Shown: positions 1 to 35,825 of the stretch, piece by piece
Position numbering within the stretch: position 1 is the first letter of the stretch
Layout of the letters: every line of letters begins with the position of its first letter
DNA from: Amphirosellinia nigrospora
Lineage: Eukaryota > Ascomycota > Sordariomycetes > Xylariales > Xylariaceae
Direction: 5' to 3'
Assembly (NCBI GenBank): GCA_004123355.1
Contig: SCHM01000005.1
Location: forward strand, 1,426,001 to 1,490,000
DNA length: 64,000 nt
Position numbers and translations under genes: made by a program
The notes under the pieces: model-generated
What the model was told of the DNA's origin: nothing
Database searches by the model: none
Seen by the model: the letters and a program-made list of their open reading frames with translations, nothing else

Positions 1-74
1 TTAATAGTAATAAAAACTACTAAATTATTATTATTTATTTAAAAATAATTACGCTATAAAATATATATATCGAA
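1..74 (-). repeat. Z3 repeat, left fragment (split by E0)
   Basis: This stretch matches the reverse complement of the Z2 repeat near 54262-54340, including a shared run that reads TTACGCTATAAAATATAT. The same Z copy resumes at 34705, on the far side of the retrotransposon E0. The last five bases (TCGAA, 70-74) pair with TTAAA at 34705-34709 as the probable target duplication of E0; the two differ only by C-to-T and G-to-A changes. Z3 continues to the left beyond the window. No coding capacity is visible. Confidence 0.7.
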
Positions 75-206
75 GAAAAAAAAAACGAAGGAGAAATAGT
101 TGTTATATTAAAAGTACGAAGTATTTGTTTGTTTTATTTAAATATGTTTAGCTATAGCTAGCTTTGCTAGCTATTAATAGCTATTAACGGACCGACGGCC
201 TATTTA
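75..206 (-). repeat. E0 LTR, low-coordinate copy (3' LTR)
   Basis: This is a 132-bp LTR matching those at 16380, 26444, 22800, 32897 and 34575 and the solo copy at 43506. It keeps the blocks for the inner hairpins (AGCTAGC repeats, ACGGACCGACGGCC). It continues at 207 into internal sequence (GTCCGGGGCAAATATTAGCG) also found beside the low LTRs of E1 and E2. Confidence 0.8.
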
Positions 207-543
207 GTCCGGGGCAAATATTAGCGCGCTTTTGCGCTTTTTTTAAGTTATTTAAGTTATTTAGATTTATTTAGGTTTATATATAAATTGTTTTAAAAGT
301 AGTATATATTTTTTATTTTTTTCGTTTATAAATAATTATTTTTTAATATAAATAATTTTAATAAATTTTTATAAAATTTAGTTTTTTTTATAACTTTTAA
401 TTTATTTAAGTTTTTTAGTATATAATTTTTTTTTATTATAATATAATTTAAAATAGTTTTTTTTATTTAGGTTTTAATTTCGGTTGTTTTTATTTTAATA
501 TATAAAAACTAGGTTTTAATTTTAAGCTATAATTTATAGTTAT

Positions 544-861
544 TATAAAATAGTGTTAATACTAGGGGGCAATACTAGGTTGGTTAGCTTAATTAGTATA
601 TTTATGCTATTATATATTTTTAGTTTTTTAGTTATAAACTAAGTAGGCTATTTTTTTATTAAATACTAAAGAATTTGCCTAAGCAGCTATAATAGCTTAA
701 TATTCCTTTTATCTTGCGTAAAAAAGGCTTTTTTATATATGCTACGCAATATTTAGCGCACATATAAATTACGTACTATATATTATATAGCTATTTAAGT
801 ATTAATAATTATATAATTTATTATTAAGAATCTAATTAAGTATTAAATTTATATACTAATA
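544..861 (-). repeat. G1 LTR, 3' copy
   Basis: This LTR pairs with 7556-7867 and with the LTRs of G2 and G3. On the plus strand it reads from TATAAAATAGTGTTAATACT to a RIP-altered form of ATACTGACA. It contains the conserved core around CCTAAGCAGCTATAATAG. It is strongly altered compared with its partner at 7556. Confidence 0.85.
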
Positions 862-871
862 TTTTTTCTAG
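862..871 (-). other. G1 polypurine tract
   Basis: On the minus strand this reads CTAGAAAAAA directly before the 3' LTR. The matching place in G2 (52154-52165) reads AGCTAAAAAAAA. Such a tract primes plus-strand synthesis in LTR elements and fixes the reading direction of G1. Confidence 0.6.
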
Positions 872-3800
872 CTATAATATATATAATATTATAAGTTTCA
901 GTCGAAAAATAATAAAAATTTTAAATTAACTTAATATTATAATTAAACTTTTTTTTATAACTAAAAATATATAATTAATTAATTAAACTAAACGTAATAT
1001 TATATATATATATAAGCTATATATTTTATTTTAAAACGGACTTATTTTTTATTTAGCTTAAAATTATTATTTATAAACGTTTTTATTGCTATTATAATTC
1101 TAGTATAATTTTTATTTATTTTAAAGTTTAAAAAAAAACTTTTAAAAATTTTATTTTTTTATATTTATCTAGGTATTTATTAAATAAGCAATTAAATAGT
1201 GCTATTTTTTAAAACCCCGGACTTTTTTTAAATTTAAACCTTTAGGACTTTTTTAGATCTAAAAAATAAATAAATAATATTAGTTATTTTTAACTAAATA
1301 TTATTTTTTTAATATTTAATAAGTTTATTAATTATAATAAAATAAATCGAATTAGTTATATATAAAATTTATAAGTTTTAAAATATTATAAATATTAAAA
1401 TATTAAATTAATTATTTTTTAAAAAATTAATATATTAATAATTTTTTTTTTAATAGTAATAAATAAGCTTAAGCTATTAATAATTATTATATAAAGTTTT
1501 AAAGAAATTTAGCTTTATTTTTTTTTTTACTAATTTTTTAATTTATAAATTAAATAAAATAAAAACTTTTAATATTTAGTTTTTTTAGTAGTTTAGTTAA
1601 CTTATTAGCTAAATTATTTTTAACTTTATATATATTAATTTAATATAGTTAGCTTATATTTTTTAGTTAATATAATAATATTTTTTATATACTTTTTTGT
1701 TTTAATATAGCTATATATTTAAACTAATTTATAGTTTTTATATTATTATATAAAAGTAATAAAACTATTTAATAATATTTTAAATTTATTTAAAAAGTTT
1801 TTATTTATGCTAGATTATTTGCTACTTTATTTATTGCGATATATTTATTTTTAATAAAGTTTTTCGCTATAACTAATTATAGTTTAAAATATTATAATAT
1901 TAGCGCGTTATTTAAAAATATAATATATTTTATTAATAATTTATATTTTTATAAGTTTAATATTAAAATAATATTAATAATAGCAAATAAATTTATATTA
2001 TTATAAATTTTATATAAATAGCTTTTTTTTAGCTTATTATATTTAATATATATATTTAAAATGCTTTTTATATATTTAGCTAATTATTTTATACTTTTAA
2101 CGTACTTATTAAAAAAATTTACTATAAATTTTATTTAAATAAAAATAATAAAGTTATATTAAACTATATAATTTAAGCAAAAAAACTTAACTTATTAAAT
2201 AAAAAAATATAATTAAATATTTTATTTTAAAAGCAAGCTTTTTTATATTTTATAAAAGTTATTTTTTAATATTTATAAGTATAAAATATTTATATATTAA
2301 ACTTAAGCTAATAAAATTAAATATTTTAATTATATATTATTTTTAATTAAAGCTTACGTTATTATTAATTTTATTTTTTATAATTTATATATTAAAAACT
2401 AATTAGTTTAGCTTAAATTATTTGCTAAACTATTTTATTAATTTTATAATAATATTTTTTAAATAATTTAAATTAAGTTTTATAATTAAAAAATTATTTA
2501 TATAAAATATAACTTTTTTTATTTTATAATTAATATATATAACGTTATTAAAATTATAAGTTTAAATTTAATTTTATTTATAATTTTTTAGCTTTAATTT
2601 ATTATTTATATTTAATTATTTAAAGCTATATAAAAGCTTTATTAGTTTAATAATTTTTTAACTAGCTAATTATATTTTTTATTTTAACTTAAAAGTTTTA
2701 AAATATTTTTTAATATTTTAAACTATTTTATAAATATTTTTTTATAAAAAGTTTTATTAAAGTATACTATTATAAATCGATTTAAATAATAATTATTTTT
2801 AAATAATTATTAAAGCTATTAAAATCTTTTATAATATATTCGGCTATAAAACAAAAGTTTTATTATAGTTAATATTTTTGCGCTAAATAAACTTATAAAT
2901 ATAGATTTTAGTTTTATATTTATTTAGTTTATTTATTAATAAATATTTTTTTTAAATATTTATATAAAGTTAATAAAATAGTATAAATAGTTTATATATT
3001 TTGCGAATTTTAAAATATTATATTTAAACAAACTACGTATTTTTTAAATATAGCTTTAAGTATTTTTTTTTTTTTTTTTATAAATGTTTTTTTAAAATAA
3101 GTTTATTAAAAATAAATATTTTTACTATAAACTTTTTTAGCAATTTTTATAAATAATCTATATAAAAGTAGCTTTTTAAAAATATAAAAATAATTTAGTT
3201 TATTTAATTTAGCTTTTTATAAGCTATAAATATTATATTAATTTTTTAAGTTTTAAATTATTTATTTTAGCTTTATATTTTAAATCGTTATAGAATTATA
3301 TATATATTTTGCTTTTTTAGCTTAATATTATATTTAGAATATAAATTATATTAAAATAATTTTATTTGTTTTATATAATAAATATAAACTTTTAATTAGG
3401 TTTTTTTAAAGTTTTTTTTTATTATGCTTAATAATAAAAGTTAGTTTTATTATTTGTTTTTACGGTTAGTTATATTTTTTTAGTTTGTTTTATTATTTAT
3501 AATATTATTTTCGACAATATTATAATCGTAATTTTATATTTAAATAAAATTTTAATTTTTTAATAACGTTATTTAAGTTTACGTTATATTTTAAAAATAA
3601 TAAACGTATAATATTTTTAAAATTATAAGCGTTATTTATATTTTAATACTTTTATAGAAAATTATATATAGTATATATAATATTTTGCTATTTTTAATAA
3701 ATTAAATTATATAGTTAAATATATTTATAATTTAAAAATATAATATTAGTTTTTTAGCTTTTAGTTTTTTAGCTAATATATATATAGATTTATTAATAAA

Positions 3801-5003
3801 TATTATATAGTATATATTTTTATTTATAAATTATTAAAGTTAAGTTTGTTATTTTTTTTTTAATTTAAATAATTAAATATTTTTTAGCTAAAGTTATTTT
3901 TTTACTATAAATTAATTAGTTTTATTAAAAATATAATAGTTATTAAAATTTATATATTTAAAATATAATTAGTAATTTAGTTTATAAAAATAAAGCTTTA
4001 GTTTTATTTTAAATAAAATTTATTAATTTTTTAATTATATTATTTTAGTATTAATTTATAAATAATAAAATAATAATAATTATTTTTATTTTATTATAAA
4101 ATGTTTTTAAATTTTTATGCCGAACTTTTATTACTATTTATATATAAAACATAATATTTTTTAATAGTTTTTATTAGGTTAAAATATTTAAAATATTAAT
4201 TTTTATTTATTTATTATAAATATATTTTAATAGTATTTTTTTTATTTTTTGTTTTATATGTTTTAAAAATATAATATTTATTATTATTATTACTATAAAT
4301 AAAAAATATTTATGTTTTTCGATTAAAACTAGTTTAATTTAGCTAAATTTATTTAAGTTATTTTTTTAAATAATTAATTTTTTAATAGTTTTTTTTAAAA
4401 TATATTTTTTAATTTTAGCTCAATTATAAATAAAATAAAAAAATATTTAACTTTTTTAAGTTTAATATTAATATTATAATATATTTAATTATTATATTAA
4501 CTTTTTAATGTTAAAATAATATAGCTAATAATACTAAAAAATTAGTTTATTTTAAATTTTAAAAGTTATTTTTACTTTTTTTTTTAATAATAATTTAAAT
4601 AATAATTTTTTAACGTTTTAATTTTGTTTGCTATATTTAGCGCGAATTTTTATAGCTTTTTTTAAAATTAATATATTATATAAAGTTTTTTTTTTTATAT
4701 ATTTATAAAAAAAACTACGCCGTTAAATATTAAAATTTATAATAGCTATTTTACGGCTATTTTTTATAGTATTTATTTAAATAACTTTTTGCTTTATATA
4801 GTTATTTTTTTAAAAATATATTTAATAAAAATAATAAAATAAATAAAATATTTTATATTATATTATGTTTATTTTTATTAAAAGTTTTAAAGTTTTTATA
4901 ACGGTGCTAATTTTTTTAATTTATATAAGTTTATTTTTTATATAAACTATATATTTTTTCGTTTTTTTAATTAGATTTATTATTAACTTTTTTTCGAAGT
5001 TAG

Positions 5004-5171
5004 TGTCACAGGTTAGCCAGGCTGGTAAGCCTGTAACCTGGGTTATGGCTCCGGCCCCGCCGGAGCCACTATATAGCAGCCCCTCCGCACACGCTAGCGC
5101 GCACAGATTTCTCTCTTCTTCATCGCAGTTAAAAACAGTATTTCCTAGCCTCAAGGCTACAACCCATCACA
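5004..5171 (+). repeat. Solo LTR H, unmutated, inside G1
   Basis: This is a GC-rich 168-bp island in RIP-saturated DNA. It begins TGTCACAGG, ends CCCATCACA, and is flanked by a perfect 5-bp duplication, GTTAG (4999-5003 and 5172-5176). These are textbook ends of a solo LTR. A TATA-like box (CACTATATAGCAG) lies about 90 bp in. It holds two strong hairpins: GGCTCCGGC/GCCGGAGCC with a 3-base loop, and an outer CAGGTTA/TAACCTG pair enclosing CAGGCT/AGCCTG. No other copy is in the window. It arrived after G1 had decayed, or is too short and too rare to be hit by RIP. The small minus-strand open frame across it is not a gene. Confidence 0.92.
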
Positions 5172-5684
5172 GTTAGCTTTATTATTATATATTTTTATAT
5201 TTAACTTTATATTAAATAAAATATAACGTTTATAGGCCGAAATATAATCATTTTTTAAAATATAAGTATATTTTAAGGTATTATTATTTTTTTATATAAT
5301 AATTTTAATATTTAGTCCGTTATTACTAGTAATTTTAATATTTAGTACGTTTTTTTAACTTAAATTATATAAAATTGCTATTAAAAGCAAAATATAAAAA
5401 TAAATATAGTTAAAAGTACTACTATTAGTTTTTTGCTTAATAATTAGTTTAATAATTAGCTTTAAATTATTAATAATAATTAGTTTTAAATTATTTTTAG
5501 ATTTATTATATTAGCTAGCTTTTATTTAATAAAAAATCCGTTATTTTTTAATTAATAAATAAGCTTGCTATAATAAATAAATTTATAGTTGTTTTTTTTA
5601 TAAAAAGTTTATAATAATTTTCTTATAAATAGGTTTATTATTGTTTTTTTTAGTTTAGTATAATTATCGAAGCTAAAGCTATTT

Positions 5685-5790
5685 TTAAATTAGGATTTTT
5701 TAAATTAAAATTTTTAAGTTAAAGTTTTTTAAGTTAAAGTTTTTTAAATTAAAGTTTTTTAAATTAAAGTTTTTTAAGCTATAATAATTT
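5685..5790 (-). repeat. 15-bp tandem repeats inside G1
   Basis: Around five copies of a 15-bp unit (TTAAAGTTTTTTAAR on the plus strand) follow one another. The same array occurs in G2 near 47430-47520 on the other strand. A 15-bp period equals five codons, so this was probably a pentapeptide repeat between the gag part and the pol part of the element. Confidence 0.65.
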
Positions 5791-7555
5791 TTTAGCTTAA
5801 AGTTATTACGTATAATATAGTTTTATTTATAATTAATAATATTATAGTTATTTAAAGTAAAAAAAAATAAACTAAATATAATAAAAAAAAAATTAATATT
5901 TATAGTTATAAAAATTTATTAAATTTTATAAAATATTTATATTTATATAAGCAAAATAATTAAAGTTATTTTAAAGCTTATAAGTAGTTTTTAATTTTTA
6001 ATAAACTTGTTATAAATATTATAAGTTTTAATCGTTTAAAGTTTTAATTCTAGTTATTATTATTTTATTAAAGCAATTTTTAATAATATAACTTATTAGC
6101 TGTATTTAAAATATTTAAGCTTTTTTTTTATTATAGTTTTTTTTTTTAAAGTTAAATTTAAAGTTTAATTTATAATTTTTGCTTTTATTATTATTTTATT
6201 ATAACTTTTATTTTTATTAATAACGTTATTATTAGATTTTTTTTTTTTATAGTTTTTAATTCGGGTTTTTTATATAGTTTTTAAAATTATTATTAAATTT
6301 ATCGATTAAATTTTAAATATAATATTTTTATATTTTATAATTTTAATAATATTATATTAATTATTGTTTTATTTTTATTATAATAATATTATAATTTATT
6401 AGTTTATGCTTATTTTTTTTAGTTTTTTATATTGTTTTATATTTTTAAAAAATTTAAATATAAAAAATAAGATTTTTTTTATATTTATAATTAATAATAT
6501 TATTTTATATATTTTTTAATATATTTAGTTATTATATATAAGTTTTACTAAAGATTTTTAATATATATAATTTTTTTTAATATTTTAATTAAGTTTAAAA
6601 AAGTTAGTTTTAATATATATAATTATTTATATTAGTATTAGTTTTTTACGAACTAATAAAGTTTTTAAAATTATATTTAATAGTTTTATAATAAAATATA
6701 AATTATATTAATATATTAATTAATTTAAGCTTTTTTTAAATAGTTTTTTTTATTAAGCTTTAGTTTAAATTTATATTATTTTAGTTTAATTTTATTATAA
6801 ATAAAAGTTTTTTTAAGTTTTTTATAAAAATAATATTTATATTTAATATAAATATTATTAAATTTTTTAAATTTAACGATAATAATAATAAATTAACGAA
6901 TTTAAATTAAATTTAAAATAAAAGTAATTTTTTTTTTTTTTTTGCTTTTAAACTTTTTTTAGTAAAATTACGTTTCGGTTTTTTTTTTTAAAATTAATCG
7001 ATTTAAACTTTTTAAAAACTTATTTATTTTTTTTTGCCGCTTTATTTAAAAAGCTTAATATTTTTAATTATTTTTTAATAATATTATTTATTATTAAATA
7101 TTTTAAATATATTTTTACTAGCTAAATTAATTTAATTAATTAAATTAACTAAATTAATTAAAACTAATTTTTTATTTAATTATTTAATTTTTTTAAATTG
7201 TTAATAATTTTATTAAATTATTTTTATAAGTTTATTTATATTTATAATTAATAAATTATTTTTCGATTTTTTTTTTAAAATCTTTAATAATTTTATTATA
7301 TTTTTTTTTTTTTATAGTTTATTTTATATATTTTAAAGTTATATATTATTACTTAATTATATTAAGCGTTAATTTATTAATTAGTTATTTTATTAAATAA
7401 GTATTAATATTTTGTTATTTTAATTTTAAATTATAATAATTTTTTTAACTTTTTTTTAATTAATATTTATTAATTTAAATTAATAATTAAAATAGTTAAA
7501 ATACGCTAATTAAACGTTTTAAAAGTTAATTAATCGTAAAAATATACTAATTATA

Positions 7556-7867
7556 TATAAAAATAATATTAATACTAAAAACAATACTAAATTAATTAGC
7601 TTAATTAATATATTATACTATTATATATTTTAGTTTTTTAGTTATAAACTAAATAAGTTATTTTTTATTAAATACTAAAAAATTTGCTTAAGCAGCTATA
7701 ATAGCCTAACATTCCTTTTATCCGCGTAAAAGGGCTCTTTCTACGCGTGCCGCGCAATATCTAGCGCATACACAAAACCACGTACTACTATGCCACACAG
7801 CCACCCAGGCACCAGTAATTACATAATCTATTACTAGGCTAATTAGGTACTAGATCATATACTGACA
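7556..7867 (-). repeat. G1 LTR, 5' copy, partly spared by RIP
   Basis: This is the partner of 544-861, ending in a perfect ATACTGACA next to the GTTAT duplication. From about 7690 onward it is far less altered than the rest of G1; GTAAAAGGGCTC and CCACACAGCCACCCAGGCACC are still legible. It shows what the G LTR looked like before decay. It contains the palindrome-like core TTGCTTAAGCAGC. Confidence 0.88.
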
Positions 7868-10180
7868 GTTATAAAAGTTTGCTTTTTACTTGGATATTTT
7901 TATATATTTGTTTAATTTTTTAAATAAATATTAAAATATCCGATATATTATATAGCTAAATTTATTTATAACTTTATTTAGTAATTTAAACTTATTTATA
8001 ATTAAATAATTTTAGCTCGATAATATTAAATAGTAAATATATTTATTTAAATATTTTTTATAATAATATTTATATAATAATTAATTAAGCTATATTTAAT
8101 AGTTTTTATATATTTAAAGTTTAAATGTTTTATTAATAGTAAAATTTTTTATTTATAATTTATTATTTTATATTTTAAGTTATTTATTTAAACTATAAAA
8201 TAAACTATTATTTTATTAAATATTATTTACGCTATTTTATTAAATATTTTATTAGTTTAATATTTTAATATAAAGTTAATAAAACGTTAGTTATTTTTAT
8301 TTTTTTTTTTTATACGATTTTAGAAGTTTTATAAAATAAAAGCGCTTTTAAGTCGGCGTATAATATAATAATAAAATGCCCGTTTTATTAGTTTAATATT
8401 TTGTTTTAATAAATATTATTTTAGTTATATAATCGATCGTAAAATAATATTAGCTATATTAACTAAAATAGTTATATATAATAAATATATTAATTTTTAT
8501 ATAAATATTAAAAACAGTTTAATAAAGTTTATTATTAATTTAAAATAGTTTATAAATAATAATAAATAAATTAAGCGCTACTATTTTTTTAAAGTTAAAT
8601 AAGCGTACTATAAGTATTAATATATATTTAATAGCGTTTATAGTTATAATAAGCTAATATATTAATTAGTTTATTTTTTTAAAATAATTAAAATATAATA
8701 ATAATTTAATAAGTTATATGTTTATTATAATATATTTAATACTTTTTTTTATATAAATATTATTTTTAATAGTTTTTAAAATAATATTTTAATTAACTGT
8801 TTTATATTTTAAAATTTTTAGCTTTATATACTAGTGCTATATATTTTAGCTTTTTTTAATTATTAGGTTTTTTAATTTATATAAGTATTTTTATATATTT
8901 AAATATTAAAAAAAATAAATAAACTTACTTTTTAATATATTATTTAACATTAAATTATTATTAAAATAATATAGCAATAAATCCGGGATAAAATTAATAT
9001 TATTAGCGTTATTAAATAATACGTTATATTAAGCTTTATATGTTTTTTAAAGTTATTTAATTAATTTTATAGTTTATTAGTTTAAACGTTATAACGTATT
9101 TTTATATAGTTTATTAATAAATGTTTTTTTTTCTATAAGTTATATATTAATAATATTTGTTAATATTGTTTATTTTGTTTTTTTAAATTTATTTTTTTAA
9201 ATTTTATTAATATTTTATAATATAATAAGTTATTTAAATAATTATTTAAAAAAAATATAATATATAATAATATGTATTATTATATTTTTTAAGCTTATAA
9301 TATAAATAATATAAACGTTAAAAAGTTATAGCTTATTTGTTTATTTTATATAAATATTTTCGATGTTTAATAATATTAAAAAAAAAAAATAGCTTAAATC
9401 TATATAAATAATAAATATATTTTTAAACTTAAAATATATTTTATATTTTTAGTAGAATTTTATAATAGCGTATAGTTTTTTTTATAAATGCTATAATTTT
9501 TTTATATTAAAATAAATAAAAAACTATTATATAATATAAACTTAAATATTTTTTTTAGTATTATAAATATAATATTTTTTTATAAGCAAATATATTAAAG
9601 TATATTTAATAAATTAATTTATAATATAATTATATATTTTATACTAATAGCTATTAATAAGCTTAATAATTTAAAAATAAATATTTTATTAAGCTTTTAT
9701 TATTATAGTACGTTTTTTAAAAATATATTAAAAATTAAATTATTTTAAAATAATTTTTATTTATTTATAAATAAAACTTATAATTTTTATAAACTTTTTT
9801 ATTTTATTTAGTTTTTTAATATTAATTAGTTTTAAAAACGTTTAGTTTTATTTTTTTAATTATTATTTTATTATAAATTTTATAAATTATTTTTAAAGTT
9901 TTTATTTATTATATTTAATTAATACTTTTTTAAATAATAGTTTTAGTTTTAATTATAATATTTTAGCAGAAAATAATATTTAATTTATTTTAGTTATTTT
10001 TTAACTATTTTATATAAATTAATATATTATTAATATATTTTACGGTATAAAAAAAAAACGTTTAAAGTTTTTAAAACAATAAAAAATAGTTCGGGTTAAA
10101 AGTTAAATATAAATTTAAACATAATTTTATTTTTAATATAAAATATATAATTAATTAAATATTTTATAATATTTTTATAA

Positions 10181-13100
10181 ATAAGTAGTTTTATAGGCTT
10201 ATAAGGCTTACTATATAATTTTACTATTATATTATATTTTCGGTATATTTAAGCTATATATATAATACGTTATTTTACGCGTTTATTTATTATATAAATA
10301 AAAAAAAAATATTAGTTTTAAATTAAACGATAATAATATATAAATACGTAGTAAAAATTATCTAAAAATACCTTTAGTATAAAATAAAAACAAAAACCCG
10401 GCGAAAAACTTTATATTTAACTTGTTTTTATTAATTTTAAGTACTGAAAAATATATTAGAAAACTTATTAGTTTAGCTACTAATAAATAATACTAATAAT
10501 AAGTAAAAAATTAATTATAATTTTAAATATTATGCTTTTAAAAACGTACGTTAGCTTACTGAACTTATTAAAAAAATAAACTAAAGCTAATATAGCAAAA
10601 ATAATATTCTTATCGGAAAAAAATATATAAAATATAATTAATATATATTTACGTTGTTTTAAAAATAATAAAGCTAAAAAAAAACTATAAATAAAAAGCG
10701 GCTATAAAATAAAGCTTAAACGACTAATAAGCGCTAGTAAAACTAGGTTTTAAATTTTAAAAAATTTATAAATATTTTTTTATTATAATAAAAATAGCGA
10801 AAAAGTTTTTAATATTAAGCCGAAATATATTTTAATAATATATAAAAATAAACTAAACTTAATAAATTTAATTAAATTATAAACAAGTAATTATATTAAT
10901 AGTAACTTTATAGCTATATGTAAACTAAATAACTAGTTAAATATTAATAGTTATTTTAATAATAAAGCTAAAATTATATAGTTTAAATATTAGTTTATAA
11001 ATATATTATTTTACGATATATATAACGATTTATAAATATTTATTTAAATAATATTATATATAGTATATATAATAAATAAGTTTGTTTGTTAAATTTTTAA
11101 GCTAGCTATAGCGTATAATATTTAAGCTATTTTTTAGTTTATAGCAAACATATATAGTTTTTTAATATTATTTTTTAAACGTTAAGCTATAAGTAAAAAA
11201 AAACTAGTTATAAAATTAATTTTTTTTATGCTTTAATTTAAAAAAAAGCGAAAATATTTTATTAAAGCTATTTGTTTAATATAAAAAAACAAAAGGTAAA
11301 TAAGAACAAGGTTTATTACTGCTAAAATAAATCGAATTATATTTATAATATAGGCTTAAAGCGTTATTATTATAAATATATATATAAAATATAGCTTTAA
11401 AAATATAAAGTTTAACGTATTAAATATAAAATAAAAAATAAAGCTAGCGGAAAAACAAGTAATGTTTATAAAATACCCGAAATAAACTGTTAGCTTAAAA
11501 AAAAAGCTAGCTAGATATTTTTTAATATTATAGCAAAAAATAGCTTTACTTTTAAAACTAAAATAAAATATTTGTTTTTTTTTTAATTTTTAGCGAAAAA
11601 AACTTTTATTAAAATAATTTTTATTTTTTTAATAGCAAATAAATAAAAAAATATTATATAACTATTTATTCGGTTAAATAAAATATTAACGGATATTTTT
11701 TAGTTCGGTACGTATAGCTATAATTTAAAATTATAGCTTAAAACTTTTTAAACTTAAAATTTATTAATATAAACTATATAATAATTAAAGCTTAAATTAA
11801 ATAAAATTTAGTTTTTATTAGATAACTATAATTAAGCTAAAAAAAAAGCTTTTAAGCTTTTATTAAGTTTAGTTTTAAAATTAAATAATAATTAATAAAA
11901 AATATACTATTATTATACTTAATAAATAAATCGGTTAATAATTAAATAAAGCTAAATTTAAAACGTTAAAATATATAATAGTTTAAAATTTATTCGATAT
12001 AGTTTATAAAATAAAGCAAAGTTTATATTTAATTAAAAAAACTTAAAAAATATATTTTAGATTATTTTAATAATAATATTATAGTAGTAGCTATTTAGGT
12101 TTACGTAAAAAAAAGTCCGCTACTATAAAAATTATTTATTGTTTAGCTATATAATACTGTATTTATTTAACTTTTTTATAGAAAGTTTTATTAGCTTTAT
12201 AAATTATACTATAGCTAGTATAAATAGTTTATTATTTAAATAATTTTATATTTATTATTTTGCTAAAAAAATTTTAAATAAAAAGTATATATTTTAAGTA
12301 CGGCTGCTTAATAAACGTTTTAAATATAATTTAAAACTTAAAAAAAAACAGCGAAAATATATTTCGAATTTTTAAAAATTAAAATTAATACGGAAATAAT
12401 AATAATAAACTATTTAAAGCTAAATTTTAAAAAATAGTTTATTTAGTAAAAAAATATTAAAAATATTATCTGTTTTTTATTATAATATCGAACGTATAAT
12501 AAGCTATTTAAGTTTTTATTTAATAGTAATTTATTTAATAAAGTGTTTTTAATAAACTTTTAAAACTATTAGCTTATTTTAGCTTTTTTTTGTTTTATTT
12601 ACTATTATAAAATAATAATAAATTATAGTAATAGCGCGATTTATTAAATAAATTTAATAAAAATTCTTATAGTTAATTCGGATAGTATTATTTATTTATT
12701 ATAAACGCGTTAAATATAAAGCTTAAAAGCTTTTAATATGAAGCTTTTTATCCGAAAAAAATTAAATTAAAAATCTTTTAGTTTTAAAAGCTAAATATAT
12801 AGCTAGCGTTAAAAAAAACAAAAACTATTAATATATATTAATACGGCCGAAATTATAATATTTAAATTGTATTTTATTATTAATAAAACGTTTAAACGTT
12901 AAATAATTATTATTTATATAAATAATAATAGCCGAAAATAAGTTTATTAACGTATTAACGTAGAATTTATTATTATTAAAAATTATATAAAATTTTAATT
13001 TTAGCAGTTAATAAAAATATCTGTTTTTAAATTTGCTATATAATTTTGTTAAAAAATAGCTTTATAAATGTTTTATTATAGTTTAATATTAAAACGGTTA

Positions 13101-15941: not shown

Positions 15942-15946
15942 TATAA

Positions 15947-16273: not shown

Positions 16274-16379
16274 TATAAATTATAATTAAAAAAACTTAAA
16301 TATTTTAAATATTAAATTAATATAATCTAAAATATTATAATTAATTAATATTTATATTTTAAATTAAACTTATAATATA

Positions 16380-16507
16380 AAAAAAAAGCAAGGAAAGTGG
16401 TTGTTATATTAAAGGTGCGTAACACCTGTTTATTTTATCTAGATATGCTTAGCTACAGCTAGCTCTGCCAGCTATTAATAACTATTGTTAGGCCGGTAGC
16501 TTATCTA
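16380..16507 (-). repeat. E1 LTR, 3' copy
   Basis: This is the low-coordinate LTR of E1, moderately altered but still showing GTGGTTGTTATATTAAAGG, the near-palindrome GGTGCGTAACACC and ATCTAGTCCGGGGCAAAC at its inner junction. It pairs with 22800-22931, which is almost clean, so the two LTRs of one element have decayed very unequally. Confidence 0.85.
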
Positions 16508-22700: not shown

Positions 22701-22780
22701 CGTAGGGTGCCTTCCACAAAGGCTATCAGGCTTCAATTCTTAGGCGTACTTGCCGCTTCGCAAAGATTTCTTTCCCTCAG

Positions 22781-22799
22781 TGTCCCATTCTTGTTACCA
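22781..22799 (-). other. E1 primer-binding site
   Basis: Read on the minus strand, TGGTAACAAGAATGGGACA begins immediately after the 5' LTR. A TGG start directly at the LTR edge is what a tRNA 3' CCA end would pair with. The tRNA was not identified. It supports both the LTR boundary and the minus-strand direction of the E family. E0 and E2 carry altered versions at 34574 and 32896. Confidence 0.6.
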
Positions 22800-22931
22800 G
22801 AAAGAAGGAGCGAGGGAGAAGTGGTTGTTGTATTGAAGGTGCGTAGCACCTGTTTGTCCTGTCTAGATATGCCTGGCTGCAGCTGGCTCCGCCAGCTGTT
22901 AACAGCTGTCGTCGGGCCGGTGGCTCATCTA
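22800..22931 (-). repeat. E1 LTR, 5' copy, nearly unmutated
   Basis: This 132-bp LTR is rich in palindromes: GGTGC/GCACC with loop GTA, CAGCTGGC/GCCAGCTG with loop TCC, the perfect palindrome CAGCTGTTAACAGCTG, and GGGCC/GGCTC-type arms near the edge. In the sense direction it starts TAGATGAGCC and ends CTTCTTTC, so it lacks the usual TG...CA ends. The solo copy at 43506-43638 is almost identical. Confidence 0.85.
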
Positions 22932-22936
22932 ATATA

Positions 22937-25900
22937 AACTAATTATAAAAATATTTAGTTTTTATATATATTTAAAAAAAAAAAAACTAATATTTAAAAA
23001 GTTTTTTTTTATTTTACTATAGTTTAATATAAATTAAAGCTTTTTTATAATTTTTATAAGTTTTTATTTTATTAATTAAAACTAGTATAGCTACTTAGTT
23101 AAAAAACTTTTATTAGCTATAATAAATTTAAATATATTTATATAATATTTAATTAAAATATTAGCTAATATAAATTTAATATAATTAAATTATTTAGCTA
23201 ATTTGTTTATAGTTTTATTTTTTTTTTTTAGTTTTTTTATATATAAAAAAATTAGTTAGTATTATATTTTAATATTATTACGTTATAAAATATATTAAAT
23301 ATATATAATATTTTATTTATTTAGTATTAAAAAGCTAAACCGTAGTTTTACGGATAATTTATTATATATATTATTTTATTAAATATTTTTTAATATAATT
23401 AATTAATATATTTTTTAATCGGTAAAAAATTTAATTTTTAGTTTTTTTTTACGCGTTATATAATTTTTTTTTTTTTAATAACGAACTAATCGGAATATAT
23501 TATTAAAAGCTAATATAATTAATAAACTATAAAACTATTTATATATTTGTTTTTCCGGGCGCGTTATATTTAAACGTAATATATATTTTTAATTAAACGT
23601 AATTTAAAAAAAAAATTATATTTTATATTAGCCGATTTAATAATTTAATTAAATCGAAACTAATAATTTAGTTTAATAAGTTATATTTAAAATATTTTAT
23701 ATTAATATAATTTTTACTATTATTATTATTTTTTATATTAAATTTTAATATATTTTATACGTTTTTTTATAATATTAATATTTTTATTATAAAAAAATTT
23801 TATAAATATTTTTAATATTAATAGCTTTTTTAACGTTATTAGTTTTTTTTTAGCGTTTAAATTTTTTATAATAAAAAAAAAGCTTTAAATATTAATAACG
23901 CTATAATATTTTAAAGCTATAACAATTTTAATAATAAAAAGTATTTTTTTATTTTAGTAATTATTATTATTATTATATAAAATAAATAATATTAAATTAA
24001 TTATATTAAATATTACGAATTTATTAATTTTTTTAGTTCGTCCGTTTAAATTTAATAAAAGCAAACTTTTTTTTATAATAAATAATTAATAAATTAAAAT
24101 ACTAAAGTTTTTAATAACGTTAAAATAAATAAAATTAATATTTTTTTTAATCTATTTAATTAAAGTTTTTTTTTATAATATTTATTATTATCTTTTTTTA
24201 ATAATAAACTTAATAACTAAAATTATTTTATATATATTTAATAATATATAATTAATATTTTATTATTAAAATTATAATTTTTATTTTTATATATTTTTTA
24301 GCTATATTTTTAGCTTTTTTTTAATTCGCGTTAATAAGTATTTAAAATTATAAATAAAATTTAAACTTATTAAAAAAATCTATAAAAAATATAAATATTC
24401 TAGTTTATTATAAAAAATCTTATAGTTTATTTATTTATTTTTTTTTTTAGCTTTTAATTTTTTTTAATAACTATAATAATACGTTTAAATTATATATTTT
24501 ATATAGTTAAATATACGTTCGGTTATTTTATTATTTATTAAATTTATAACTAAAACGTTATTTAAAGTTTTATGTTTTTTAATAGCTAGTTTTATTATAA
24601 TATTAAATATAGTTTAAAATATAGCTATAAAGTTTTATAAATTTTATTTTAAAGTTATATTATTATTTATTATTTTTATAATAAATAGCTTAATATTTCG
24701 AAAAAATTTTTATTATAATTAAATTATTATAAATATTAAACGTTTTATATAAATTAAATATTTTACTTATAAAATAAATATTGTTTTTTATTTTTTTAAT
24801 AAACGTATTATAATATAACTAAACTAATTTAAATTAAACTTTTTAAAAATAAAGCTTTATAAATATAAACTTATATACTAATAATTTTTATTTTTAAATA
24901 AGCTTATTTTTATTATTTATTATTTATTTTATTTTTATATATTATAGCTATATATAGCTTTTTTTATTATAGCAAAAATAAACTTTTTTAATTTTTTTTA
25001 AAGTTTTAAAGCTATTAATTAATAAATAATTTAATAATTTATAAATAAAAATTGCTTTAAAAATAGCTTATTATAACTTTAGTAATTTTTCGGTTATATA
25101 AGCTATAATTTTATATTTTTTCTATTATATAGCTATTATTATAACTATTATTACTATTATATAAATTATTTCGCTAATTTTTATTAAATTTTAGCTAGTA
25201 TGCATAAAAACAATTTTTTAATATATATTTTATTTAATAATAATTATAATATTTAATAGCTAATTAGTTTATTCGATTTTTTTAATATATTTATTTTTAT
25301 ATAAAATATATTATATTATAATAAATTAACTAAAAAATAATTTTATATATAATAAATTAAAAGCAATTAAAAATAAAAGTTTAATTATTAATAAAAACAA
25401 GTAAGTTATTTATTTTAATAAAGTAAAATTATTAATATTTTTAATAACTTATTTAATAAAAATATTTAAAGTTTTATATAAGATTTTATAAATCGTTTTT
25501 ATTTTTATTGCTTTATATATTCGGCTTTTATTTTAGCTTTATTAATATTATTTTTAAAATATTTTAAATAATTTTAAAATTTTTTTTAACGTTTTAACTT
25601 TAGTAGCTTTTATAATAAAGCTTTTTAATATAAATTATAGTTTTTAAAACTATTAATAAATCTAAAAATAATTATTTATAAAAAAATATTTTTTATTAAA
25701 AATTTAATAATAGTTTTACTATTTAATTAATATTAATTTTAAGCATATTTTAAATTTTTATTTATTTTATAGCTTTTTAAATATAGTTATAATATTAATA
25801 AAACTTATTTTTTTTTTTAATTAATATATATTAATTTTTAGTTTTATAAATTTTTATTATTATTAAGCGGCTTAAATATTAATTTTTAAAAAGTTATTAT

Positions 25901-26139
25901 AGTTTTAGCAATTTTTTATTATAGCGGTATTATTAATACTTTTTTTTATAATTTTTATAATTTAATATTTAAATCTAAAAATAGCAGTTTTAATATAAAG
26001 TATATTAATAGTATAAATAATTTTAAATAAAAATAATTTTTTAAGTATATTTAACTTTTTAAATTATTAAATAAATTATTAAAACTATTTAAATAATAAC
26101 TTATATTATTAAAATATTTATATAAATTAAAATTAAATA
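22937..26139 (-). mobile_element. E0 internal segment (gag and pol part)
   Basis: This stretch belongs to E0 and aligns colinearly with 19205-22290 of E1 and about 29290-32540 of E2. It begins just after the E1 target duplication and ends where Y-a is inserted (AAATA at 26139). It is saturated by RIP, so none of the gag features readable in E1 survives. No open frame of note is present. Confidence 0.8.
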
Positions 26140-26443
26140 CTAAAGGCTTTTTAATTTAGGGGTAAAAATGCTTAAGTTTTTAAGAACTATATATTTAGGT
26201 TAGTAAATAAGTTATAGTTGCCGGTTATGCTAGTTTGCTTTTTTTTAATAAGTTATATATAATAGAATTTATTATTTTATTTTAATTTATTAATTATAAT
26301 ATTTGTTTTTTACGTAATTATATAATATATATTAAAAAATATTTGGCTATTTAATTAATAATAATAATAAATTTACTTATAAGTATAAACGTTAATATAT
26401 AATATTTTTATATTTGTTTTATTAATAATAATAATATACGCTA

Positions 26444-26573
26444 GAAAAAAGGGGCAAAGGAGAAGTAGTTATTATATTAAAGGTGCGTAGCACCTATTTT
26501 TTGTCTAGATATGCCTAGCTGCAGCTAGCTTTACTAGCTATTAATAGCTATTATCGGGCCAACGGCCTATCTA
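26444..26573 (-). repeat. E2 LTR, 3' copy
   Basis: This 130-bp LTR starts GAAAAAAGGGGCAAAGG on the plus strand and ends CGGCCTATCTA. The hairpin GGTGCGTAGCACC is intact. It directly follows the CGCTA duplication. Confidence 0.88.
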
Positions 26574-29500
26574 GTCCAGAGTAAACATTAGCGCGCTTTT
26601 ACGCTTTTTCTAAATATTTAGATCTATTTAAGTTTACGTATAAATTGTTTTAAAAATAGTATATATTTTTATTTTTTTTCGTTTATAAATAATTATTTTT
26701 AGAATAATTTTAATAAATTTTATAAAACTTAGTTTTTTTTACGATTTTTAATTTATTTAAGTTTTTTAGTATATAATTTTTTTTTTATTATAGTATAAAT
26801 TAAAATAGCTTTTTTATTTAGGTTTTAATTTTAGCTATTTTTGTTTAATAAATAAAAACTAAATTTTAACTTTAAGTTATAATTTATAACTATAAAAGCT
26901 TGCTTTTTTGTTCGAGCGTTTTTATATACTTGTTTAATTTTTTAAATTAATATTAAAACTAGCTAATATATTAAATTGCTAAGTTTATTTATAATTTATT
27001 ACTTAGTAATTTAAACTTATTTATAATTAAAGTATTTTTAGCTCGATAGTATTAAATAATAAATATATTTATTTAAACGTTTTTTATAAGCAATTTATAT
27101 AATAATTTAGCTAAGCTATATTTAATAGTTTATATATTTAAAGTTTAAATGCTTTATTAATAATAAAATTTTTATATTTTATAATTTATTATTTTTATTT
27201 TAGGTTATTTATTTAAATTATAAAATAGATTATTATTTATTAAATATTATTTGCGTTATTTTATTAAAAACTTTATTAGTTTAATATTTTAATATAAAGC
27301 TAATAAAGCGTTAATTATTTTATTTTTTTTTTTATATAATTTAAAAGTTTTATAAAATAAAAACATTTTTTAAATTAGTATATAATACTAGTAATAAAAT
27401 GCTTATTTTATTAGTTTAATGTTTTATTTTAGCAAATATTATTTTAATTATATAATCGATCGTAAAATAATATTAGCTATATTAATTAAAATAGTTTATT
27501 ATATAATAAATATATTAATTTTTTTATATAAATATTAAAAAAGTTTAATAAAGTTTATTATTATAACTTAAAATAGTTTATAAATAATAATAAATAAATT
27601 AAGCGCTATTATTTTTTTAAAGTTAAAATAATATATTATAAATATTTTAATATATATTTAATAGCGTTTATAGTTATAATAAGCTAATATATAATTAGTT
27701 TATTTTTTTTAAAATAATTAAAATATATAATAACTTAATAAATTATATATTTATTATAATTTTTAATATTTTTTTATATAAAATATTATTTTAGTAGTTT
27801 TTAAAATAATATTCTAGCTAACTGTTTTATATTTTAAAGTTTTTAGCTTTATATACTAACGCTAATATTTTAGTTTTTTTTATTTATTAGATTTTTTAAT
27901 TTATATAATATTTTTATATATTAAATATTAAAAAAATATATAAACTTATTTTTAATATATTATTTAATACTAAATTATTATTAAATAAATATAATAAGTT
28001 TAAAATAAATTAATATTATTAGCATTATTAAATAATATATTATATTAAGTTTTATATTTTTTTAAAGTTATTTAACTAGTTTTATAGTTTTATTAGTTTA
28101 AACGTTATAACTTTTTTATATAGTTTATTAATAAACGTTTTTTTTTTTATAAGTTATATATTTAAATATTCGCTAATATTTGTTTATTTTATTTTTTAAA
28201 TTTATTTTTTAATTTTTATTAATATTTTATAATATAATAAATTATTTAAATAGTTATTTAAAAAAATATAATATATAATAATACGTCCGTTATTATATTT
28301 TTTAAGCTTATAATATAAATAATATAAACGTTAAAAAACTATAGTTTATTTATTTATTTTATATAAATATTTTAATATTTAATAATATTAAAAAAAAAAA
28401 AAATAGCTTATAATTTATATAAATAAAAATATATTTTTAAACTTAAAATATTTTTTATATTTTCGGTAGAATTTTAATAATATATAGTTTTTTTTTATAA
28501 ATATTATAATTTTTTTATTAAATAAATAAAAAACTATTATATAATATAAGTTTAAGTATTTTTTTTAATATTATAAATATAATATTTTTTCTGTAAATAA
28601 ATATATTAAAATATATTTCGATAGGTTAATTTATAACGTAATTATATTTTTATAGTAATAGCTACTAATAAGCTTAATAATTTAAAAGTAAATATTTCGC
28701 TAAACTTTTATTATTATATATATATTTTTTTAAAAACGTATTAAAAATCGAGCTATTTTAAAATAATTTTTTATTTATTTATAGGTAAAGTTTATAGTTT
28801 TTATAAACTTTTTTATTTTTATTTAATTTTTAATATTAATTAGTTTTAAAAGCGTTCGGTTTTATTTTTTAATTATTATTTTATTATATATTTTATAAAT
28901 TATTTTTAAAGCTTTTATTTTATTATATTAATAGATTTTTTTAAATAATAGTTTTAATTTTAATTATAATATTTTTAGCAAAAAATAATATTCGATTTAT
29001 TTTAATTGTTTTTTTATTATTTATATAGGCTAAATATATTATTAATATATTTTACGGCGTAAGAAAAACATTTAAAGCTTTTAAAGCTAAAAAAATAGTT
29101 TAAATTAAAAGTTAAATATAAGTTTAAATATAATTTTTATTATTTTTAATATAAAATATACGGCTAATTAAATATTTATAGTATTTTTATAAGCTATAAT
29201 TAAAAAACCTAAATATTTTAAATATTAATATATAATAATAATTTAAATATACTATAATTAACTAATATTATATTTTAAGTTAAACTTATAATATAAATTA
29301 ATTATAAAAATTTAGTTTTTTATATATTTATAAATAAAAAAAAGTTAATATTTAAAAAGTTTTTTTTTTTATTATAATTTAATATAAGTTAGGGTTTTTT
29401 TATAGTTTTATATTATAACTTTTATTTTTATTAATTAAACTAATATAGCTGCTTAATTTAAAAAACTTTTATTAATTATAATAGTAGATTTAAATATGCT

Positions 29501-32500
29501 TATATTAATATATTATTTAATTAAAATATTTAATTAATATAAATTTAAATATAATTAAAATCGTTTAGCTAATTTATTTTATAGTTTTATTTTTTTTTAG
29601 TTTTATTTTATATATAAAAAAATTAATTAGTTTTATTATATTTTTAATATTTATTACGTTATAATTTTTATATATATATTAAATATATATAAATATTTTA
29701 TTATTTTTAATATTAAAAAGCTAAACTACGGTTTTACGGATAATTATTATTTATATATTATTTTATTAAGTATTTTTTTTTTTAATATAATTAGTTAATA
29801 TATTATTTTTTAATCGGTAGGAAATTTAATTTTTAGTTTTTTTTTATATATTATATAATTTTTTTTTTTTAATATAATAAACTAATCGGGATAAATATAT
29901 TAAAAGCTAACATAGTTAATAAACTATAAAGCTGTTTATATATTTACTTTTTTAAACGTATTATATTTAAACGTAATATATATGCTTTTAATTAAATATA
30001 ATTTAAAAAAATAAATAATATTTTATATTAGCCGATTTAATAACCCGGCTAAATTAAAGCTAATAATTTAGTTTAATAATTTATATTTAAAATATTTATA
30101 TTTATATAATTTTTATTACTATTATTATTATTTTTATATTAAATTTTAATATATTTTATATATTTTTTTATAATATTAGTAATTTTTTATATAAAAAAGT
30201 TAGTTTATAAATACTTTTTAATAATATTATTAGTTTTTTTAACATTATTAGCTTTTTTTAGCGCTAAAACTTTTTATAATAAAAAATAAACTTTAGATAT
30301 TAAATAACGTTATAACGTTTTAAAACTATAATAATTTTAATAATAAAAAAATATTTTTTTTATTTTTAATAATTATACTATTATTTATATAAAGTAAATA
30401 ATTTATAACTATTATATTAAATATTATAACTTATTAACTTTTATAGTTTTTTGTTTAAATTTAATAAAGTAGCAGATTTTATTTTTATAGTAAATAATTA
30501 ACGGATTAAAATATTAAAGTTTTTAATAACGTTAGAATAATAAAATTAATATTATTTTTTTAATTTATTTAATTAAAGTTTTTTTTATAATATTTATTAT
30601 AATTTTTTTTCGACAATAAACTTAATAACTAAAGTTATTTTATACGTATTTAATAATATAATAATTAATGCTTTATTATAAAAATTATATTTATTTTAAT
30701 ATTTTTTAGCTATATTTTTAGCTTTTTTTTAATTTATATTAATAAATATTTAAAATTATAAATAAAATTTAAGCTTAATTAAAAAAGTTTATAAAAAATA
30801 TAAATATTTTAATTTATTATAAAAAAGTTTTATAATTTATTATATTTTTTTTTTTTAGCTTTTAATTTTTTAATAGTTATAATAATATTTAAATTATATA
30901 TTTTACGTAGTTTAAATACGCGTTTATTATTTTATTATTTACTAAGTTTATAATTAAAACATTATTTAAAACTTTATGTTTTTAATAGCTAGTTTTATTA
31001 TAGTATTAAATATAGTTTAAAATATAGCTATAAAGTTTTATAAATTTTATTTTAAAGTTATATTATTATTATTATTTTTATATAATAAATAGCTTAATAT
31101 TTTAAAAGGATTTTATTATAATTAAACTATTATAAATATTAAATATTTTATATATATTAAATACTTTATTTATAAAGTAAGCGTTTTTTTTATTTTTTTA
31201 ATAAATATATTATAGTATAACTAAACTAATTTAAATTAAACTTTTTAAAATAAAGCTTTATAAATATAAACTTATATATTAATATATTTTATTTTTAAAT
31301 AAGCTTTTTTTATTATTATAGTTATTTATATTATTTTAATATATATTATAGCTATATATAGTTTTTTTATTATAGTAAAAATAGATTTTTTTACTTTTTT
31401 TTAAAGTTTTAAAGCTATTAATTAATAAATAATTTAATAATTTATAAATAAAAATTATTTTAAAAATAGTTTATTATATTTTAATAACTTTTTTAATTAT
31501 ATAAGCTATAGCTTTTATATTTTTTTTATTTATATAGCTATTATTATAATTATTATTATTATTACTATTATATAAATTATTTTATTAATTTTTATTTAAT
31601 TTTAATTAATATATATAAAAGCAATTTTTAATATATGTTTTATTTAGTAATAATTATAATATTTAATAGCTAATTAGTTTATTTAATTTTTTTAATATAT
31701 TTATTTTTATATAAAATATATTATATTATAATAAATTAACTAAAAAAGTAATTTCGGATATAATAAATTAAAAACAATTAAAAGTAAAAGTTTAATAATC
31801 GATAAAAATAGTTAAGTTATTTATTTAATAAAAAAATTATTAATATTTTTAATAGCTTATTTAATAAAAATATTTAAAGTTTTATATAAAATTTTATAAA
31901 TTATTTTTATTTTTTATTTTTATATATTTAGCTTTATTTTAGCTTTATTAGCTATTATTTTTAAAGCGTTTTAAATAATTTTAAAATATTTTTTTAGCGT
32001 TTTAATTTTAGTAGTTTTTATAATAAAGCTTTTTAATATAAATTATAGTTTTTAAAACTATTAATAAATTTAAAATAATTATTCGTAAAAAAATATTTTT
32101 ATTAAAGATTTAGCTATAGCTTTATTATTTAATATAATATTTATTTTAAATATATTTTAAATTTTATTTATTTTATAGCTTTTTAAATATAGTTATAATA
32201 TTAAATAAAAACTTATTTTTTTTTTAATTAATATATATTAAGTTTTTAGTTTTATAAATTTTATGTTTATTAAGCGGCCTAAATATTAGTTTTTAAAAAT
32301 TATTATAGTTTTAATAAGTTTTTATTATAGCGGTATTATTAATACTTTTTTTATAATTTTTTATAGTTTAATATTTAAATTTATAAAATAATAGCTTTTT
32401 TAATATAAAATATATTAATAATATAAATAACTTTAAATAAAAGCAATATTTTTAAATATATTTAACTTTTTTAAACTATTAAATAAGTTATTAAAGCTAT

Positions 32501-32896
32501 TTAAATAATAATTTAATATTATTAAAGTATTTATATAAACTAAAGTTAAATATTATTTATACTAGTTTTATTATATTTATAAAAGCTAAACAATCGATTA
32601 ATTATTAAAATAATTACTTTTAAATAAATATTAAAGGCTTTATTAGCGAACTGTTTAAATTTAAGTAATATTTTCGAAGGTTAAGTTTTAAAAAGCGTTT
32701 TTAAATAAAACGCCTATAAGTAACTGCTTTAGGTTTTATTTATTTTAATTAAGCAAATAGTTAATAAATAAAATAAATATAATAATATTAATTATTATAT
32801 AAAGTGTTTTTTATAAAAAGCTATTAAGCTTTAATTTTTAAGCGTATTTACTGCTTATAAAAGATTTCTTTTTTTTATATCTTATTCTTATTATTA

Positions 32897-33028
32897 AAAA
32901 AAAAGGGCGAGGGAAAAATAGTTATTATATTAAAGGTGCGTAGTACTTATTTATTCTATTTAAATATGCCTAGCTATAGCTAGCTCCGCTAGCTATTAAT
33001 AGCTATTATTAAACCAACGGCTTATTTA
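32897..33028 (-). repeat. E2 LTR, 5' copy
   Basis: This 132-bp LTR is the partner of 26444-26573. It keeps GGGCGAGGGAAAAATAG and GCTAGCTCCGCTAGC. An altered primer-binding site (TAATAATAAG on the minus strand) adjoins it at 32896. It ends at the CGCTA duplication. Confidence 0.85.
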
Positions 33029-34223
33029 CGCTAAAGTTATATTATTATTTTATAATTAGATTATAATTTTAAGCTATAAAATAAAATTAAAAAGTTAAAT
33101 ATTATAATAAATAATTAATTTTTACTTTAAGTAAAAAAGATTTATTATAATATTAAGATTTTTAAAACGATTTTTAACCTAAATAAAATTAAAAAACTTT
33201 TCTAGTATAAAATATTATTTTAAATTTTAAATATAACTATAAGCTATTTTTAATTTTAAATATAACTATAAACTTTATATTTTAAATAATAACGCTATTT
33301 AAAATATATTAATTTTATAACGTATTAGATTTTTATTTTTTTCGAAAAAAGCTTAAGTTTGCTAATAAGTTTAAAAAAACTTTATAAGCTAGCTAAAACG
33401 TTTAAAAAAAAAAAACTTTTTAAAAAAAGCTTAAGTTTATTAATAAGTTTAAAAAAAACTTTATAAGTTAATTAAAACGTTTAAAAAAGAAAAATTCGAA
33501 CACTTAAAAAATACGTTTATTATAATTAATTTAAAGCTTTAAAGTTTTTAAAGATTTAAAAACTATATTTAAAATATTATAATAAAAAATAAAAAAATAA
33601 GCAAAAAAATTATAAACGAATATTTTATAAAAAATATTGCTATATTTATTATATTAATATAACGGCTAATTTTATAATAATTATAGTTTTTTTAAAAAAT
33701 AGTTTAATAAAAATTATATTTAAGTAAAATTATATAATAATATTAGTTTATAACTTAAAAATAATAAATATTTAAATTAATATTAAATTAAAAAAATAAA
33801 AAAATAAAATAATTATAAATATAATTAAACAAATAATATTAAATAATTATATTTAATATAAAATATAACTATTAAATAATCGGGTTTAATAAAACGTATA
33901 ATTATTAAATAATTAGATTTAAATAAAATTAGATTTAGTATAACTTATAAAAAAAAAAAATTAAAAATAAAATTTTATAATTTATTTATATTATATTATT
34001 ATTTTTAATATAAATATTTAATTTTAAATTATTTTATTAAATTTATAATTATCCGGATAAAAAAATAAATATTAAAAACTAAATATATATAATAATAAAT
34101 AAAAATAAAAAAGTTCTTAATTCGGGTAAAAAAATTTTTATTTAAAATATAAAAATAAAAAATTTTTTATCGATAAAAAAACTTTTTTTTTATTTAATTA
34201 TACTTTTTTATAAAACTTAAACA

Positions 34224-34704
34224 TTATTTACGTTAGTTTTGCTATATTTATAAAAACTAAACGATTAATTAGTTATTAAAATAATTGCTTTTATGTAAAA
34301 ATTAAAAGCTTTATTAATAAACTATTTAAGTTTAAATTTAAATAGTATTTTTAAAGGTTAAGTTTTAAAAAGCGTTTTTAAATAAAACGCCTATAAATAA
34401 CTGCCCTAGGCTTTATTTATTTTAATTAAATAAATAATTAATAAATAAAATAAATATAATAATATTAACGTTATATAAAGTATTTTTTATAAAAGCTATT
34501 AAAACTTAATTTTTAAGCGTATTTGCTGCTTATAAAAAGATTTCTTTTTTTTCCGTATTTTACTTTTATTACCAAAAAAAAAGCGAAAGAAAAATAGTTA
34601 TTGTATTAAAGGTACGAAGCACTTATTTATTTTATCTAAATATATTTAGCTATAGCTAGCTCTACCAGCTGCTAATAGCTATTAACGGACCGACGGCCTA
34701 TCTA
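34224..34704 (-). mobile_element. E0 terminal segment with 5' LTR (34575-34704)
   Basis: This is the last piece of E0. It starts at the Y-a junction and aligns with 32550-33028 of E2, including the near-unaltered block AAACGCCTATAAATAACTGCC. The 130-bp LTR at 34575-34704 ends GACGGCCTATCTA. The primer-binding site remnant (TGGTAATA on the minus strand) lies at its inner edge. Immediately afterwards the Z3 repeat resumes. Confidence 0.82.
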
Positions 34705-35440
34705 TTAAAACAAAAATAAATAATACTATTAAAACAAAAATATATAATATTATGTTATAAAATATTTTTAATTATTTTTTAAGTTTGTAAATATTTCTTA
34801 AGTTATAAACGTTTTAATTAACGTTTTAAACTAATTTTATTAAAGTAATATTTTTTATAATAATAACAATTTTTTTAATAATAATAATATTTATTTATAT
34901 TTTTATTTTATTTTATAAACGAAAATAAAATCTTTATTTATGCTTTTAAGCAAAAAACGTTAAACTAATACTTTTTAATAGTTTTATTTTTATTTTCTAA
35001 ATAAACCGATATATTTTAAACAATAACGATTTTTATTAACGTTTTTATTTTTACTTTTTAAACGAATATAAGTTTTATATAGCTATAAGGTTATTATTAA
35101 TAAAAATATAAACGATAATAAAAATAATAATAACAATAAAAAAATAAAAATAAAAATAAAACGGAAAAAAATAAAAATTATAGCAATAAAGAAAAAATAT
35201 AAATAATAGTTTAATTAAAAAAACATATAACGATAGTAATAATAAAAATATTATTTTATTTTTTAAAGGGGGGCAAATATAACGCTATTTTAAAAATAGT
35301 ATTTCTAAAATAATATTTAATAAGCTAAATATTATCCGTAGGACGTTATTTTTAAGACAACGTTTAATATAATAAACTTAGCTTAATAATTTAATAATTT
35401 TAAAATTAATAAACTATATATTATTATTTATTATTTAATT
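34705..35440 (-). repeat. Z3 repeat, right fragment with S module
   Basis: This continues fragment 1-74 on the far side of E0 and matches the reverse complement of Z2 (53501-54260). At its right end lies the S module, with an 84-bp palindrome at 35280-35363 whose arms read AACGCTATTTTAAAAATA and its complement. A short less altered run, AAAGGGGGGCAAATATAACG, is at 35263-35283. No coding capacity is visible. Confidence 0.75.
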
Positions 35441-35820: not shown

Positions 35821-35825
35821 TTAAT

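Follow-up and report, generated by a model that had tools for sequence, protein, structure and literature searches.

Architecture of the transposon nest

The window analysed here is a 64-kb stretch of Amphirosellinia nigrospora DNA (C7:1426001-1490000, on a contig of 1,533,180 bases, in a genome of 48.1 Mb and 11 contigs), and its left part holds a nest of transposons, among them the long terminal repeat (LTR) elements E0, E1 and E2. With a probability of about 0.85, this is a transposon stack in an AT-rich block that was eroded by repeat-induced point mutation (RIP), and in which the late-arriving E1 was mutated over part of its length only. RIP-eroded nested transposons are an already known kind of structure. 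The guanine plus cytosine (GC) content of the whole window is 12.4%, and the AT-rich block to which it belongs starts near C7:1414200 and extends to the contig end, over at least 119 kb. Ahead of the block lies DNA of about 50% GC, and at its left border GC drops within some 400 bases, from about 0.43 to 0.08; at two other AT-block edges examined in the genome the change likewise takes about 100-400 bases. The window contains no open reading frame of at least 200 amino acids, no transfer RNA gene and no Rfam match. The features of the nest are as follows.

1-74, minus strand: left part of a Z copy (23-74 matches the Z copy at 45323-45275, minus strand, with 94% identity; the upstream sequence also matches Z copies)
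75-34704: E0, LTR element in five pieces (75-543, 7873-10182, 16281-16379, 22937-26142 and 34227-34704), own length 6562
544-7867: G1, LTR element of own length 7151 in E0, with duplication GTTAT and LTRs at 547-861 and 7560-7867
5004-5171: H, solo LTR in G1, GC-rich, with TG...CA termini and duplication GTTAG
10183-16280, plus strand: F, single element in E0, with split direct repeats and without target duplication
16380-22931, minus strand (from a weak zinc-knuckle match only): E1, LTR element in E0, duplication ATATA, 6552 bases
26143-34226: Y-a, element in E0, in parts 26143-26443 and 33029-34226 split by E2, both matching Y at 54717-56334
26444-33028, minus strand (assigned as for E1): E2, LTR element of 6585 bases in Y-a, with duplication CGCTA
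34705-35427, minus strand: right part of the Z copy (84% identity to 54234-53500, minus strand; 91% to 45279-45129, minus strand)

The original prediction described a four-level nest whose lengths close exactly, and its framework is borne out. Z matches lie on both sides of E0, and the last five bases of the left Z part (to 74) are shared with the right part, being the duplication at E0. The E0 pieces tile in order, as one colinear set, on E2, which is the check that the prediction had named, and the order of pieces and their overlaps with paralogues are consistent. Without inserts, E0 measures 6562 bases against 6552 for E1 and 6585 for E2, and G1 measures 7151 against 7156 for G2 (45323-52478, minus strand), with 46 transversions in 6999 aligned columns. 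The predicted duplications were recovered at E0, G1, H, E1 and E2. The one proposed for F, TATAA, was not, given that its left copy is E0 sequence and its right copy is F's own end. What had been taken for two elements, F1 and F2, is a single 10.2-16.3 kb insert, F, with repeat A1 at the left end and B1-A2-B2 at the right. The claimed unambiguous order of events stands as far as the nesting goes, but probably not for the placing of E2 after the level of E1; H is either late or was too short to be mutated.

The E elements have LTR pairs of 131 bases and 5-base target duplications at E0, E1 and E2. Between the duplications their termini read GAAA... and ...CATCTA, not TG...CA; LTR elements without TG...CA termini do exist. 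The pol region of the E elements is mutated, and a zf-CCHC zinc knuckle in E1 (E=0.01) lies below the Pfam cut-off; besides it, the eight stop-free pieces of E1 searched against Pfam gave two weak, unrelated matches below cut-off. Alignments were scored with mild penalties for C/T and G/A changes. A permissive self-BLAST was dropped because it returned hundreds of 64%-identity matches from base composition, as was a two-letter purine/pyrimidine BLAST, which ran on through unrelated sequence. E1 and E2 align over their full length with no gap of 15 bases or more, and in the 6434 aligned columns 1258 transitions stand against 40 transversions. The transversions number 73 in 6488 columns between E0 and E2, and 79 in 6343 between E0 and E1 (one 107-column piece was left out of the E1 comparison); because they have fewer transversions, E1 and E2 are a closer pair than either is with E0. 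The two LTRs of E0 (76-206 and 34574-34704) differ over 131 columns by 18 transitions and no transversion.

Mutation signature in E0 and E2

Taking E1 between 21400 and 22790 as the unmutated reference, E2 has lost 501 of 648 and E0 504 of 643 G or C bases, on both strands. In E2, the loss of C depends on the following base (CpA 146/160, CpG 100/129, CpT 158/215, CpC 101/148), so that CpA is the most and CpC the least affected. A C following G or A is partly protected, except before A, and the order is shared by E0 and E2. Deaminase editing of retroelement complementary DNA was ruled out, E2 and E0 being mutated on both strands. The excess of transitions in repeats, the preference for CpA and the clustering on one strand (for which the natural CA/TG ratio is uncertain) were all found, as is expected of RIP; single-copy DNA was examined for GC only. 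In all five mutated E LTRs of this test the LTR is mutated less than the interior: the losses are 34, 24, 37, 34 and 26 out of 71 or 72 sites, whereas 51 to 54 would be expected from the rates in the interior. Several GC islands of the window also lie at element ends (16076-16300, 7651-7900 and others), where mutation is weaker in the outer 100-200 bases; this weakness was quantified for the E LTRs only.

The genome holds three DNA-methylase (PF00145) loci, one of them with a BAH domain. One PF00145 open reading frame has EQT in place of the ENV found in most methylases (no RID-specific model was used), which we take to be a trait of RID.

The low GC could in principle result from ordinary mutational decay toward AT in old, untranscribed repeats, as the block is AT-rich throughout and such drift is seen in many genomes. 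Nonetheless, this is very improbable, given the 1258 transitions against only 40 transversions between E1 and E2, the position of unmutated E1 sequence next to E0, where 78% of the same sites are gone, the switch to about 50% GC outside the block over a few hundred bases, and the nearly identical trinucleotide order of loss in E0 and E2. We give as little credence to the nest being an assembly artefact. AT-rich repeats assemble poorly, the end of the contig falls inside the block, and AT-rich sequence opens 7 of the 10 contigs whose start was readable, but an intact element end is present at every insertion, together with a 5-base duplication except at F and Y-a, and the order of pieces agrees with the overlaps with paralogues.

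The block resembles the AT-rich RIP blocks of Leptosphaeria maculans and Neurospora crassa in its nested, near gene-free repeats, its C-to-T changes on both strands and its sharp borders. It differs from them in that GC reaches 6-10%, with about 77% of G + C lost relative to the unmutated reference (a level not systematically compared with other genomes), and in that C after G or A is protected unless A follows.

The half-mutated element E1

GC across E1 rises from about 10-13% at the left to as much as 47% at the right, and is 9% in E0 past 22931. Two stretches of the element are distinguished below.

19850-21250, plus strand: transition zone of E1, with 8 CpA on the plus strand and 71 on the minus strand
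21250-22931: near-unmutated end of E1, GC about 47%, with 3 of 188 sites mutated (21300-22931)

At the G/C sites that survive in E2, mutation in E1 affects 113 of 312 between 16.3 and 19.3 kb, then 11/41, 14/52, 6/39 and 2/45, before the near-unmutated end is reached at 21.3 kb. The two strands do not fall off together. At sites surviving in E0 or E2, about half of the C are lost across 17.35-19.85 kb, followed by 10/34, 13/30 and 3/27, while the loss of G is about one half near 17 kb and one third by 19.5 kb, followed by 10/35, 2/34 and 0/32. Within 19850-21250, the loss of C (26/85) exceeds that of G (12/95; p=0.006). Among the dinucleotides, CA on the plus strand numbers 0 or 1 per 250 bases over 18-20.8 kb and then increases gradually, reaching 17 per 250 at 22.5 kb, while TG stands at 11-26 per 250 bases already from 20.5 kb. 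The transition zone has 8 CA and 71 TG, against 62 and 115 farther right (p=1.8e-5), and slight plus-strand mutation may extend into the region right of 21250 as well. Over 130 columns, the left and right LTRs of E1 show 27 differences, of which 26 are AT at the left and GC at the right and none is a transversion.

To the right of E1 lie 3.2 kb of E0 that are homologous to E1 itself and saturated with mutation, as the end of E1 is not. It is very likely, from this comparison, that E0 was mutated before E1 arrived, because unmutated homologous E0 beside E1 should have been mutated together with it. E1 is probably younger than E2, because E2 is fully mutated in spite of its deeper position in the nest. 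H is unmutated inside saturated G1, and is either a later arrival or was spared as too short. A reverse-transcriptase segment occurs elsewhere in five copies (C1:5499608, C1:12638343, C4:2326918, C4:7647740 and C4:7655988) that show no difference in 459 bases (51% GC), which suggests that RIP has not acted on the most recent insertions.

Stretches that are untouched, mutated on one strand and mutated on both strands, in series within one element, are an uncommon feature. E1 can tentatively be seen, at odds somewhat short of even, as a freeze-frame of RIP moving along a new retroelement, having started at one end, with the plus strand mutated about 0.5-1 kb, and possibly up to 2 kb, beyond the minus strand. 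The spared end of E1 would be explained if its RIP partner was only partial. In the available portions of the literature on RIP gradients (PMC2973834, PMC9453070, PMC7296669) no such pattern is described inside one retroelement, which does not prove that it is unpublished. The leakage of RIP beside the avirulence genes of L. maculans is alike in that mutation density declines with distance in one direction (PMC2973834); there, leakage runs into single-copy DNA beside the repeat, whereas here it lies inside a full-length retroelement, with strands ending at different distances.

Several other histories could have left E1 with a spared right end. A serious contender, which we likewise place below an even chance, is that RIP ceased or became rare in the lineage while E1 was being mutated, and that no partial partner was involved. 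The five identical reverse-transcriptase copies, which look like a recent unmutated burst, and the unmutated state of H and other short LTRs agree with it; on its own, however, it leaves the polarity of mutation within E1 unexplained, and short solo LTRs may escape by their shortness. Spread of mutation into the left part of E1 from the mutated neighbours E0 and F, and not through homology of E1 itself, is unlikely, even though graded leakage into single-copy DNA is described for L. maculans and a reach of at least 930 bp is cited for Neurospora in PMC2973834. The right end of E1, as near to mutated E0, is untouched; the stretches closest to the neighbours on the left, namely the left LTR and the tail of F at 16076-16300, show less mutation than the interior of E1; and the two other block edges examined in the genome are abrupt. 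Less likely still is a chimera, in which a mutated left half and an unmutated right half were brought together by gene conversion or recombination. This would likewise yield the two states in one element, but the transition extends over about 2 kb and is gradual, not a step, and the strands fall off at different places, where a copied patch would carry both equally.

Several points weigh against the main account of RIP in the nest and in E1. RIP is here inferred from its product, and the classical RIP indices are of no help, as TpA/ApT in unmutated E1 (1.1-1.7) overlaps with that of most of the window (1.1-1.5). The zone used for the CA/TG comparison is itself skewed (62 versus 115) and is an uncertain reference for the natural ratio. 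Between 16520 and 19850, losses of C and G do not differ significantly (79/172 versus 100/255, p=0.20), with CA/TG there at 11/53. No partial partner of E1 was found. A genome search with the whole of E2 scored 2 of its 1401 candidates. In a different search no unmutated relative of the E1 interior (21500-22717) was seen, all 27 other matches among the best candidates starting at 22718 or beyond. Unmutated E-type LTRs elsewhere have their GC peak at the LTR alone in 7 of 7 loci, with solo status tested at two of these (L005 and L008).

Element F and other insertions

The repeats of F, all on the plus strand, are arranged as follows.

10183-10293, plus strand: A1
15784-15948, plus strand: B1
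15949-16054, plus strand: A2
16115-16280, plus strand: B2

The layout A1...B1-A2-B2 recurs at four more loci, C7:541034-547202 (6169 bases), C1:9319761-9325984 (6224), C4:4117011-4123096 (6086) and C1:11838359-11844555 (6197); three further loci have B1-A2-B2, with A1 not among the repeats listed. No target duplication was seen by eye before A1 and after B2 in the window and at the four loci. As described in PMC4157794, PAT and Ngaro elements have split direct repeats with the internal repeats downstream, and F shares with them both the A1...B1-A2-B2 layout and the lack of a target duplication. F is built like a tyrosine-recombinase retrotransposon, and is a candidate member of that class. F differs from Ngaro/PAT in that recombinase and reverse-transcriptase domains were not recognised in its copies: the tyrosine recombinase model PF00589 matches nowhere in the genome, and the 32 RVT_1 matches all lie outside the five F copies. 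The F copy of the window carries mutations, and in the other four the interior was not read. Such elements are rarely reported from Ascomycota, with one remnant (PMC3783388) and one family in Zymoseptoria tritici (PMC4502367).

H has 34 matches in the genome, counting itself, including six same-strand pairs spaced 6.3-6.9 kb apart; the spacing fits putative LTR pairs around the constant interior of an LTR retrotransposon family. Other unmutated pieces of the window are likewise short. One of them, at 43507-43639 (minus strand), is an E-type LTR that has AT-rich DNA on both sides and is 92% identical to the right LTR of E1. To the right of the nest, the 0.3 kb insert at 35.5 kb (35501-35875) is GC-rich (37%) and unmutated; a first look gave 191 genome candidates, of which 40 were scored. 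It is probably a solo LTR, because the best reverse-transcriptase match, at C4:4991127, lies between two of these scored matches (C4:4988194 and 4994746). A second Y element (52561-53235 and 54319-56577) has its own empty site, from which the ends of Y can be read directly.

Telomere repeats were found only at ends of C1, C4, C5 and C9, and the block-side end of C7 is without them. That the AT-rich block may be a regional centromere was considered from position and composition only, given its extent of at least 119 kb, its place at a contig end lacking telomere repeats and the AT-rich starts of 7 of 10 readable contigs. Contig C9 (1.33 Mb, less than 3% of the genome, ending in telomere repeats) holds 15 of the 32 reverse-transcriptase matches, and may be an accessory chromosome.

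The nesting gives the stack a relative dating, within which each element can be read for its state of mutation. Given that E1 provides a near-unmutated reference, in the same genome, for copies that have lost about 77% of their G + C, the context rules and edge effects of RIP become measurable without reconstruction. F suggests the presence of tyrosine-recombinase-type elements in a RIP-competent fungus, a setting from which reports of them are rare. If the polarity of E1 is real, it gives a testable picture of the reach and strand of RIP beyond its target. Should E1 indeed be a freeze-frame, a single chromosome copy would hold the direction, reach and strand order of RIP, in contrast to the two other edges examined in this genome, which are sharp.
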